From NCBI GenBank assembly GCA_029862045.1, contig JAOTYE010000013.1:1-64000 (forward strand): a stretch of 64,000 nt of DNA, written 5' to 3'. The notes below the pieces were generated by a model, which ran no database searches, was not told where the DNA came from, and was given only the letters and a program-made list of their open reading frames with translations. Made by a program: the position numbers and the translations under genes. Positions 24,216-27,142 of the stretch are shown here, in pieces (within the stretch, counting starts at the first letter, position 1; every line of letters starts with the position of its first letter). This DNA is from Gammaproteobacteria bacterium (GTDB lineage: Bacteria; Pseudomonadota; Gammaproteobacteria; Steroidobacterales; Woeseiaceae).

Positions 24216-26204
24216 TTAGATCAGGTCGGCATCAGTAATAATCTCGATTAGCGATGGGCCCCGGCAGGCGAGCGCTTCAGCGAATGCCGATTCCAGTTTT
24301 TCGGCTTTAGTGACCCGAAAACCTTTGCCTCCGCACAGGTTTGCGTATGCGGCGAAACTCGGATTGTGCAGTTCTGTCTGCCATACCGGCCACTCACCCG
24401 CTCTCTGTTCTTTCGATATCTTGCCAAGCTGCGAGTTGTTGAGTAATACATGGGTAATGTCCATGTTGTATTTCACGGCAGTATTGAAGTCGCCCATATA
24501 CTGGCCAAAGCCACCGTCACCACTGATGGAAATTACCTTGCGACCGCGGTATTCATCCTGATCCTGGGTCGCCGCCCACGCACCCATCGCCGCCGAAAAC
24601 GCAAAACCGATCGATCCCAGGTAGCCCGACATCAGAATCCGCTGGCCCTGACTTTCAAAGTAACGGCCGAATGAGTAAGTGTTATTGCCGACGTCCACTG
24701 CAATGATGGCGTCACCGGGAACGGCCGGGCTGAGCGCAGCGAACACCGTCGCCGAGTTCAGGCCCTTGCCCTGATCATCACTGAGCCGGCTGCGTTTCTC
24801 CTCGCGCCAGATCGCCCAGCGTTCCGCGAGTTCCGGACGTTGGTCAACTGATTTGTTGGCCCCCGAGAACTGCGCTGCTATGAGCCTGGCGGTAACACCG
24901 ATCTCCGCCCAAACAGGAATCGTCACGCCGTGAAACTTGCCTAGAGTCATGCGATCGAAATCAACTTGAATAATTGGGCGTTTTGGTGTGATACCTGTGT
25001 GGTTGGAGAAAGAAGAACCAAACGCCAGGATAAGGTCACACTCATTCATGAACCAACTCGCCACCGGCGTGCCCGAGCGGCCTAATACACCAGCGGCCAA
25101 CGGGTGATCATCGGCGATCTGACCTTTGGCCTTGAACGTCGTTAAGACCGGTGCATTGAGGCGATCAGCCAAAGCAATGACGTCGCCCATCGAGTCTCTG
25201 GCGCCATACCCCACGATTACGATCGGACGCTTCGACTTCCTGATCAGCGACACAGTGTCTTCGAGCACGTGCTCGTCCGGAGCGATCGTCGATGCAGCAA
25301 CGCGCCCATCCGGACTGCCCGCACTGGCAGATTCTTTTGCGGGCAAGGTTTGCACATCGTCGGGAAAGGTCAGGTGCGCCACATCACGCTCGACCAACGC
25401 GCTCTTACACGCAAGCGTCATAAGCTCGGCGTGTTTCGACGTGTGCAACACGGTCTGGCTGAATCGAGCGACAGGCGCGAAGGCGGCGGCGAGATCGATT
25501 TCCTGAAAGGCGCCGGGACCCAATACCTGCACATCGACCTGACCAGTCAGCGCCAGGACGGGTGCCCGGTCGACTTTCGCATCCCATAGACCTGTCATCA
25601 GGTTGGTCGCGCCGGGCCCGGCAATGGTCAGGCATGCAGCCGGCTTACCCGTCAGTTTGGCGTAACCGGAGCAGGCAAACGCCGCAGCACCCTCGTGACG
25701 AATACCATAGTAGGTCAGGCTTCCCTTCTTCTCCTGCAATCGCAGCGCATCGGCAAGACCCAGGTTCGAATGGCCAACCATGCCAAACACGGACGTCACG
25801 CCCCAGTTGGTCATGGTTTCCGCCATCACATCGGTAACGGTTGTCGCGTGGGGCGCCTCGGCTTCGAGCCCCACGTAGATGCCGTCCTCACGCACCTCGG
25901 TTGGGTATAGTGTTTGGCCGCTGTCCTCGTGCCCGCCCGGCGGACGGCCGGTCTTCGGATCGAAATCCCAGCCGTGCCATGGACAGCGCAACCAGCACTG
26001 TCCATCTTTACCAATCTCAACAGAACCCTCACCGAGCGGACCACCCTGATGCGGGCAGCGATTATCCATGGCCGTAAATTCACCGTCGATGTGGGTCAGT
26101 GCCATCGAGTGAACGCCGGCTGTCACGGTTTTTACGCGACCTGCGGGAAGCTCATCGACATCCGCAACGCGATACCAATCCAGCTGTTTGTTATTCGTCG
26201 TCAT
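24216..26204 (-). CDS. Rieske [2Fe-2S] domain fused to a pyruvate-oxidase-like ThDP enzyme
   Basis: 662 residues, no signal peptide. Residues about 8-118 form a complete Rieske domain with the ligand pairs C50-x-H52 and C74-x2-H77 (CPHQGG, CPWHGW). From about 122 the chain is a thiamine-diphosphate enzyme. The pyrimidine-domain catalytic glutamate is in IRHEGAAAF (near E171), AGPGATNLM follows, and the diphosphate-binding GDGGF motif is about 25 residues before LLNN. The C-terminal KISKEQRAGEWPVWQTEL region is closest to pyruvate oxidase rather than acetolactate synthase. The Rieske cluster could take electrons from ThDP/FAD chemistry, giving an oxidative decarboxylase. That is inference, and a regulatory or ferredoxin-docking role is also possible. 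The start overlaps the upstream DUF5996 stop by ATGA, with an AGAGG Shine-Dalgarno. Confidence 0.85.
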   Translation of the reverse strand: MTTNNKQLDWYRVADVDELPAGRVKTVTAGVHSMALTHIDGEFTAMDNRCPHQGGPLGEGSVEIGKDGQCWLRCPWHGWDFDPKTGRPPGGHEDSGQTLYPTEVREDGIYVGLEAEAPHATTVTDVMAETMTNWGVTSVFGMVGHSNLGLADALRLQEKKGSLTYYGIRHEGAAAFACSGYAKLTGKPAACLTIAGPGATNLMTGLWDAKVDRAPVLALTGQVDVQVLGPGAFQEIDLAAAFAPVARFSQTVLHTSKHAELMTLACKSALVERDVAHLTFPDDVQTLPAKESASAGSPDGRVAASTIAPDEHVLEDTVSLIRKSKRPIVIVGYGARDSMGDVIALADRLNAPVLTTFKAKGQIADDHPLAAGVLGRSGTPVASWFMNECDLILAFGSSFSNHTGITPKRPIIQVDFDRMTLGKFHGVTIPVWAEIGVTARLIAAQFSGANKSVDQRPELAERWAIWREEKRSRLSDDQGKGLNSATVFAALSPAVPGDAIIAVDVGNNTYSFGRYFESQGQRILMSGYLGSIGFAFSAAMGAWAATQDQDEYRGRKVISISGDGGFGQYMGDFNTAVKYNMDITHVLLNNSQLGKISKEQRAGEWPVWQTELHNPSFAAYANLCGGKGFRVTKAEKLESAFAEALACRGPSLIEIITDADLI

Positions 26205-27061
26205 TGCCTCTGTCCTCGGTCTGAATTCGCGAGCATCTGTTCGCGCCCGGCGGACAACAGGCTGTTCCAGAGGTCCAACAGGTAGGCGTCCGGATCACTG
26301 CTTTCAATCAGCAATCGATACCGGAGCACCGCAGCGTTAAACCCTTGCGTGTGCCAACTGGCACCGGCCGGCAATCGCAGACTCGGGAAACCATCGGGAA
26401 ACGGATAAGCGGTCACGTAAAAGTAGGGTTCTGGAATTCCTTCATCGCCAAACGTGAAACCGAAGTTCATTTGCTTGTCAGAATACTCTTCGTTCCGTGG
26501 GTCCTGGCCGGCAATTTTCTCGCCCGGCAACCATAACATCGACAGATCAAAATGGTGGGGCCATAGTTGGATAGGGCTCGTTTCCTCAGGTATACCGGCT
26601 CGGAACTCCGCCATCGCCGCGCTAACTGAGTTCAAAGTAAGGTGCAGGCTACGGGCGTGCTCAGCTGAGTAAGTGACCCTCGCAACTTCGTCATCACCGA
26701 TGGCGTTTTCCGGGACCAGGTTTTTGCTCAATCCATTGGCAAGCAAGAAATCCTCAGCGAGCCTTGCGACTTCTGCGGCCGGCTGCCCGTGCAGCGCAGC
26801 CTCAAGATTTGCGCCGTGCGAAGTTCGACCGTGGATATTGCTTTGCCTGAGGTCCAGCTCGAGTTCAAAATCGATGTCGGCGTGAACGACGCCCGTCGTT
26901 AATCCGCTCAGTGACGGTCGCAGGCTGGCATGCCACCAATGCTTACGCTTCGGACGACATACCTTCAAGTAGTTACCCAGAATGCGCGCATAGTCGTGCA
27001 AGGCGCTACGTGTATCTGCTGTGTCTGTCTCAAGTAACTGTGGAAATCTCACCTGCGCCAT
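26201..27061 (-). CDS. DUF5996 family protein
   Basis: 286 residues from the ATG at 27061, which has a GAAGGA Shine-Dalgarno. A TTG one codon earlier is unlikely. The sequence matches the DUF5996 pattern: a tryptophan-rich HWWHASLRPS near the N-terminus, the WPHHFDLSMLWLPGE core, then GQDPRNEEYSDKQMNFGF and the YFYVTAYPFP motif. The family is soluble and of unknown function. It is the first gene of a two-gene unit with the Rieske-ThDP fusion (ATGA overlap), so a role in the same reaction or in handling its product is likely. No cofactor motif is visible. Confidence 0.8.
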   Translation of the reverse strand: MAQVRFPQLLETDTADTRSALHDYARILGNYLKVCRPKRKHWWHASLRPSLSGLTTGVVHADIDFELELDLRQSNIHGRTSHGANLEAALHGQPAAEVARLAEDFLLANGLSKNLVPENAIGDDEVARVTYSAEHARSLHLTLNSVSAAMAEFRAGIPEETSPIQLWPHHFDLSMLWLPGEKIAGQDPRNEEYSDKQMNFGFTFGDEGIPEPYFYVTAYPFPDGFPSLRLPAGASWHTQGFNAAVLRYRLLIESSDPDAYLLDLWNSLLSAGREQMLANSDRGQRQ

Positions 27062-27142
27062 CAATTCCTTCTACGCATTCATCTGTTATTTGACCCGATT
27101 CGCGTTGTTTTTGTTACCGCTGGAATTGAGGGGCCTTTGAGT

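Follow-up and report, generated by a model that had tools for sequence, protein, structure and literature searches.

A conserved fusion of a Rieske domain to a thiamine diphosphate enzyme is linked to other Rieske-bearing proteins in bacteria and on haloarchaeal plasmids

The window analysed here, a 64,000-nucleotide stretch of DNA, encodes a Rieske domain fused to a thiamine diphosphate (ThDP) enzyme. This fusion is a real, stable and conserved family, and the Rieske-bearing proteins of its cassette co-occur strongly and are linked. Its companion is a glutamate-synthase-type protein with a Rieske domain of its own (Rieske-GltS), joined in some lineages by a ferric-reductase-like membrane protein that bears a Rieske tail (ferric-reductase-Rieske). 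Rieske domains occur in bc-type complexes, dioxygenase systems and a few reductases; no report of a Rieske-ThDP or Rieske-glutamate-synthase fusion was found in the titles and abstract openings of the open-licence literature. That such enzymes travel together is a new result beyond the single fusion, and suggests a possible, hitherto undescribed electron-passing stress module.

The fusion is encoded by an intact ORF of 662 aa with an ATG start (24216..26204, minus strand), a call based on the ORF, Pfam and 80 relatives. The Rieske domain, predicted to be of the [2Fe-2S] type, occupies residues 9-87 (25944..26180, minus strand; PF00355, E 2.1e-18, 66.4 bits against a Pfam cut-off of 20.3). The three ThDP enzyme domains span residues 122-655 (24240..25841, minus strand), as assigned by Pfam, PoxB alignment and conservation: TPP_enzyme_N at residues 122-239 (E 1.1e-32), TPP_enzyme_M at 315-439 (E 2.3e-30) and TPP_enzyme_C at 504-655 (E 7e-33). 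All four Pfam matches exceed their curated cut-offs. The cluster-binding stretch, from codon C50 to codon H77 (25974..26057, minus strand), was recognised from the sequence itself and its conservation, and carries the ligand pairs C50-P-H52 and C74-P-W-H77 (CxH and CxxH). E171 aligns to the catalytic glutamate E50 of E. coli PoxB, and the ThDP/Mg motif is formed by G562-D563-G564 and N589-N590; F233-Q234, K595 and E599 were further residues noted in the ThDP part. The original prediction of a complete Rieske domain preceding, in one chain, a ThDP enzyme with intact catalytic glutamate and GDG...NN motif was thus borne out. Six Rieske matches were found in the window genome, and that of the fusion was the strongest. 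A second short Rieske protein lies on the same contig just past the window (G000:C33:66271-66522; open frame of 214 aa). The genes flanking the fusion in the window encode an MFS transporter, a galactonate-dehydratase-like protein and a PhoD-like protein, and stand outside the cassette. Promoters and terminators predicted in the window were no more numerous than in shuffled sequence.

A scan of GTDB contigs revealed at least 574 loci encoding a relative of the fusion. The best 80 of these encode a full or nearly full chain at 66-87% identity, under record labels that include Gamma- and Alphaproteobacteria, Nitrospirales, Acidobacteriota and others. Full-length copies (51-61% identity) were also found on five of 72,556 plasmid records, from four haloarchaea and one Mycobacteroides abscessus; the plasmid matches listed below those five drop to 34% identity, start at residue 115 or later and lack the Rieske domain. 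Because full-length or nearly full-length relatives recur at these identities in loci and plasmids alike, a chance fusion is excluded. Conservation was examined in 84 homologues, comprising 78 of the best 80 loci, the window and the five plasmid copies; L034 and L052 were left out because no uninterrupted ORF of more than 600 aa was found there. All four cluster ligands (C50, H52, C74 and H77), which the original prediction had named, are invariant in 84/84 homologues from bacteria and haloarchaea, as are E171, F233, Q234, D563, K595, K598 and E599, and the linker from H77 to T122 measures 43-44 residues throughout. Pairwise identities average 69% in the Rieske domain and 77, 61 and 71% in the three ThDP parts, which puts conservation of the Rieske domain roughly on a par with that of the enzyme. 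Distribution of the fusion is patchy (13/101 genomes in the window's family and 5/398 in the phylum sample), and relatives occur in the named isolates Labrenzia/Roseibium and Haloferax larsenii.

The enzyme part had been described as pyruvate-oxidase-type, a label that fits its fold and closest relatives but not the NCBIfam equivalogs. The best NCBIfam match was the pyruvate oxidase PRK08611 (385 bits against a cut-off of 742; residues 122-660), a model that stops short of the Rieske part; PRK09124 gave 298 bits (cut-off 792) and TIGR02720 gave 289 bits (cut-off 638). Since these cut-offs are missed widely, we call the fusion POX-like rather than a pyruvate oxidase. The nearest solved chain by sequence in a PDB search was E. 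coli PoxB (3eya/3ey9). In a fold search, the predicted fold matched 3eya with Z 41.2 at 28% identity and tied with HKA synthase at Z 42.1, and the fold-search rows listed, which span fusion residues 118-662 only, do not separate oxidases from carboligases. When the fusion was aligned with the PoxB sequence from the K-12 genome, both showed the three-domain ThDP fold, the catalytic glutamate and the GDG...N motif, and PoxB residues E50, F112-Q113 and E469 (as E599) were kept. PoxB has no Rieske domain, whereas the fusion carries one at its N-terminus. Moreover, the C-terminal tail of PoxB (about 40 residues), which presumably binds the membrane, begins where the fusion ends; no homologue among the 84 has residues past position 662, and thus none has a PoxB-type tail. 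F465 of PoxB, which we take to be an electron-relay residue, is replaced by K595 in 84/84; unfused relatives in the alignment also have M or Q at this position. The stretch TQFPY and D292, which we assume to be FAD positions of PoxB, read SSFSN and D415, respectively, in the fusion. A classical pyruvate oxidase was therefore rejected as an identity, on scores far under the NCBIfam cut-offs, the missing tail and Lys in place of Phe465. The Rieske part resembles Rieske-type ferredoxins (PF22543, PF00355) in its CxH...CxxH ligands. Its second loop, CPWHGW, lacks the disulphide Cys found in bc1-type Rieske proteins, as is characteristic of the low-potential Rieske ferredoxin type. Unlike those ferredoxins, it is covalently joined to an enzyme.

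Neighbours of the best 80 loci were clustered, and nine neighbour families were scored; the resulting counts are lower bounds, ORF picking favouring the longest ORF, which is sometimes antisense (e.g. L226), and contig ends cut many fusion loci. A GltS-type gene lies within 6 kb of the fusion in 39/80 loci, with a Rieske motif in front in 35; the motif is lacking in L049, L066 and L085, and the L083 ORF is cut short. A Na_H_Exchanger antiporter was found near the fusion in 26/80 loci, a Ferric_reduct membrane protein with a C-terminal Rieske domain in 25/80, and a predicted exported protein in 23/80, 22 of them together with ferric-reductase-Rieske. ECF-sigma-like genes (11/80) and zinc-type anti-sigma-like genes (10/80) were named by eye from sequence. 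Another 23 of the 80 loci have none of the nine scored families. Representative members confirmed the domain content of the GltS, antiporter and ferric-reductase groups. In L170 and L171 the operon reads antiporter, Rieske-GltS, DUF5996, fusion and small membrane protein, with sigma/anti-sigma genes upstream in L171. In L223 it reads antiporter, Rieske-GltS, small membrane protein, ferric-reductase-Rieske, exported protein and fusion, again with sigma/anti-sigma genes.

In the window's organism, Rieske-GltS is the sole Rieske-bearing cassette partner found, and it is encoded on another contig (G000:C3:9639-11249). Compared with the FMN part of ferredoxin-dependent glutamate synthase (1llw/1ofd), Rieske-GltS keeps the FMN-barrel region and the three-Cys 3Fe-4S motif, but no amidotransferase part was matched and an N-terminal Rieske domain is present instead. 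Common in the phylum sample is a GltS-type protein that shares 64-70% identity with the core of Rieske-GltS but has a different N-terminus (L158-L163 and phylum-sample matches starting near residue 128 are examples), and gain or loss of the Rieske domain on GltS could therefore be traced. No reference-set ThDP gene adjoins six unfused GltS genes taken from the window's family, L158-L163. Rieske-GltS is present only in pieces, adjoining DUF5996 and the fusion, on contig C17 of G093/G499 (the genome of L013), and is interrupted by TAG in G042 and G224; these broken genes reflect either decay or assembly errors. On a plasmid of Streptomyces sp. NBC_01497 (L157:1388-6064), GltS-type, unfused POX-like and cation/proton antiporter genes stand in a row, all of them Rieske-free. 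A general Rieske-free parallel cassette was considered and rejected, given that such adjacency occurred only in L157 among 60 of 110 GltS-type and 60 of 83 ThDP-type plasmid records; L157 is a possible counterpart, as a single case.

The ferric-reductase-like membrane proteins with a C-terminal Rieske domain were observed at L223:8241-10116, L243:7218-9429 and L244:7511-9492 (that of L243 was not picked up as an ORF, its match being L239), and a small membrane protein and the exported protein often accompany them. For the member at L041, six membrane segments are predicted, and its positive loops orient the Rieske tail to the inside; a second member yielded five segments. The exported partner has the conserved Cys motif GeI.D.KC..G.MrPg.G..HkaCA.lC..GGiPp; it matched no Pfam family in the two members scanned and gave no credible PDB match.

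Co-occurrence was measured in three collections. In the phylum sample (398 genomes), where the fusion is present in 5 genomes and Rieske-GltS in 11 (a partial match in G260 was left out), Rieske-GltS was found in 5/5 fusion genomes and 6/393 others (Fisher p 5.7e-9; with the window's genome removed, 2.1e-7), and because related genomes are not independent, these and the following p-values are inflated. Ferric-reductase-Rieske was present in 4/5 fusion genomes, the window genome being the exception, and in 2/393 others, G183 and G380 (p 7.3e-8). On plasmids, full Rieske-GltS was detected on 3 of 72,556 records, and all three are among the five fusion records (hypergeometric 1.6e-13; four other plasmid GltS records without the Rieske part were not counted), and archaeal plasmids repeat the pairing. 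In the window's family, 11/13 fusion genomes versus 29/88 others carry Rieske-GltS (p 5.6e-4), five genomes with unfused GltS only not being counted as carriers. The family sample and the 80-locus set overlap and are not independent (for example, L019 in G502 has the coordinates of G076). As 29 of the 40 family carriers have no fusion, Rieske-GltS does not need the fusion enzyme. Where no GltS-type gene neighbours the fusion (41 loci), Rieske-GltS lies elsewhere in 21 of the genomes (counted by eye); it was not found in the other 20, many of which are fragmented MAGs.

A DUF5996 gene (26201..27064, minus strand; 287 aa, divergent cassette subfamily) lies directly upstream of the fusion and overlaps its start by 4 nt. 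The assignment draws on PF19459 (E 9.1e-40; 137 bits against a cut-off of 25), coordinates and linkage. The original prediction had proposed its product as a possible required partner. Divergent DUF5996 is indeed a cassette member, being present in 11/13 fusion genomes versus 7/88 others of the window's family (by eye). In these 18 genomes (three short fragments were left out), it lies beside Rieske-GltS only in 7, the fusion only in 5, both in 4 and neither in 2 (by eye). Since it also stands beside Rieske-GltS in fusion-free genomes, and only 22/80 fusion loci have a DUF5996-like gene nearby, it is not generally required by the fusion. DUF5996 and ferric-reductase-Rieske are almost mutually exclusive, with a single locus containing both (Fisher p 8e-4). 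An AlphaFold2 model of the protein had a pLDDT of 88.4. Its best VIA-align hit (Z 5.2, rmsd 4.0, 117 aligned), an uncharacterised Synechococcus protein, fell under the informative level and was rejected as a fold link. In L034 (5149-6393), DUF5996 and the start of the Rieske domain share one stop-free frame that breaks after the Rieske part, which is either a sequencing error or a natural DUF5996-Rieske fusion. No mention of DUF5996 was found in the open-licence full-text literature.

The Rieske domains of the cassette are of three distinct types. In a Rieske tree, the fusion, GltS and ferric-reductase groups were each monophyletic (support 0.96, 0.94 and 0.99, respectively). Mean Rieske identity was 20% between fusion and GltS, equal to that between the fusion and other Rieske proteins of the window genome, and 29% between fusion and ferric-reductase types. 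The separate clades and the 20% identity indicate that neither the fusion nor GltS recently passed its Rieske domain to the other, and separate acquisition by each cassette enzyme would be the simplest reading. The principal argument for a role in electron transfer is that the cassette enzymes, though unrelated, have a distinct Rieske type apiece.

We tentatively favour the reading that the fusion is a ThDP-dependent 2-oxo-acid oxidase whose Rieske domain lets electrons out singly to the Rieske partners of the cassette, although we hold it at somewhat less than an even chance. A soluble ThDP enzyme would oxidatively decarboxylate a 2-oxo acid, with pyruvate as first candidate, and electrons would reach the Rieske cluster via FAD (if present) or straight from the ThDP intermediate, and pass from there one at a time to a partner Rieske protein. 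The receiver may be the Rieske protein with glutamate-synthase-type FMN/3Fe-4S parts or, in many alphaproteobacteria, the ferric-reductase-like membrane protein with its predicted cytosolic Rieske tail. With that tail predicted inside, electrons could cross the membrane to the predicted exported protein in cassettes of the L223 type. A comparable principle operates in pyruvate:ferredoxin oxidoreductase, where ThDP chemistry hands single electrons to an iron-sulphur cluster; that enzyme uses [4Fe-4S] and yields a CoA product, whereas the fusion has a Rieske-type cluster site and the POX fold. The built-in cluster had originally been thought to suggest a different acceptor route. Such a route is plausible because the PoxB-type tail is missing in 84/84 and two other Rieske redox proteins keep the fusion company; cluster and FAD occupancy, substrate, electron direction, Rieske-to-Rieske contact and the stress role are inferred.

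Several other readings bear on the same evidence. K595 in place of PoxB F465 means that the chemistry may not be oxidative, but M or Q also occupies this position in unfused relatives. Taken with the tie between HKA synthase and PoxB in the fold search, the substitution agrees with a non-oxidative carboligase, acetolactate-synthase-like, in which FAD is structural or absent and the Rieske domain serves assembly or docking only. We consider this distinctly unlikely: the metal ligands, unneeded for a purely structural role, are invariant, and PoxB E469 is kept as E599, versus W in the acetolactate-synthase-like protein of the window genome. K595 and K598, which are invariant, lie near the active site and differ from PoxB, would also suit inward electron flow, in which a reductase or a Rieske partner feeds the Rieske domain and the ThDP enzyme catalyses a reductive or non-oxidative reaction; Rieske ferredoxin-type domains normally take electrons from reductases. 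Yet the scored neighbour families include no recurring gene for a dedicated flavin reductase, and the closest families are oxidative POX, so that inward flow appears quite improbable.

Instead, the Rieske cluster might sense redox state or oxygen and thereby turn the ThDP enzyme on or off, catalysis running via O2, quinone or a soluble carrier as it does in standard pyruvate oxidases. The constant linker that fixes the domain and the sigma and anti-sigma genes, which point to stress control, are consistent with a sensor, but a sensor does not predict distinct Rieske domains on the partner enzymes, and we judge it unlikely. It is highly improbable that the neighbours are fellow passengers in mobile stress islands while the fusion acts alone. 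The patchy spread of the fusion and the position of its haloarchaeal plasmid copies among merA, DsrE, peroxiredoxin and transporter genes agree with such islands, whereas the Rieske-GltS pairing persists unlinked in 21 genomes and in both domains of life.

The cassette is probably a stress module, given its cation/proton antiporter and, in some lineages, its ECF sigma/anti-sigma pair; the haloarchaeal copies close to merA, DsrE and peroxiredoxin genes add to the stress context. In Bacillus subtilis, yerD presumably encodes a GltS-like protein and ydaP a pyruvate oxidase. Both are reported as SigB general stress genes (PMC7824861, PMC5717166). Their presence in the SigB regulon may be a distant parallel to the stress context of the cassette. 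In its widest form, which is possible but rather unlikely, the proposal is of a Rieske-wired stress module, in which the ThDP enzyme, the GltS-type flavoenzyme and, in some lineages, the ferric-reductase-like protein would each have gained a Rieske domain separately, and electrons would run from Rieske to Rieske, bypassing NAD(P)H and quinone, to feed glutamate-type chemistry or to cross the membrane, beside cation/proton exchange. The cassette offers a shared, testable context for proteins with such generic names as 'thiamine pyrophosphate-binding protein', 'glutamate synthase-related protein' and DUF5996. If the proposal is true, Rieske domains would be fitted plugs for electron exchange between unrelated soluble and membrane enzymes, and this would constitute a new organising principle for redox metabolism, from proteobacteria to haloarchaeal plasmids.
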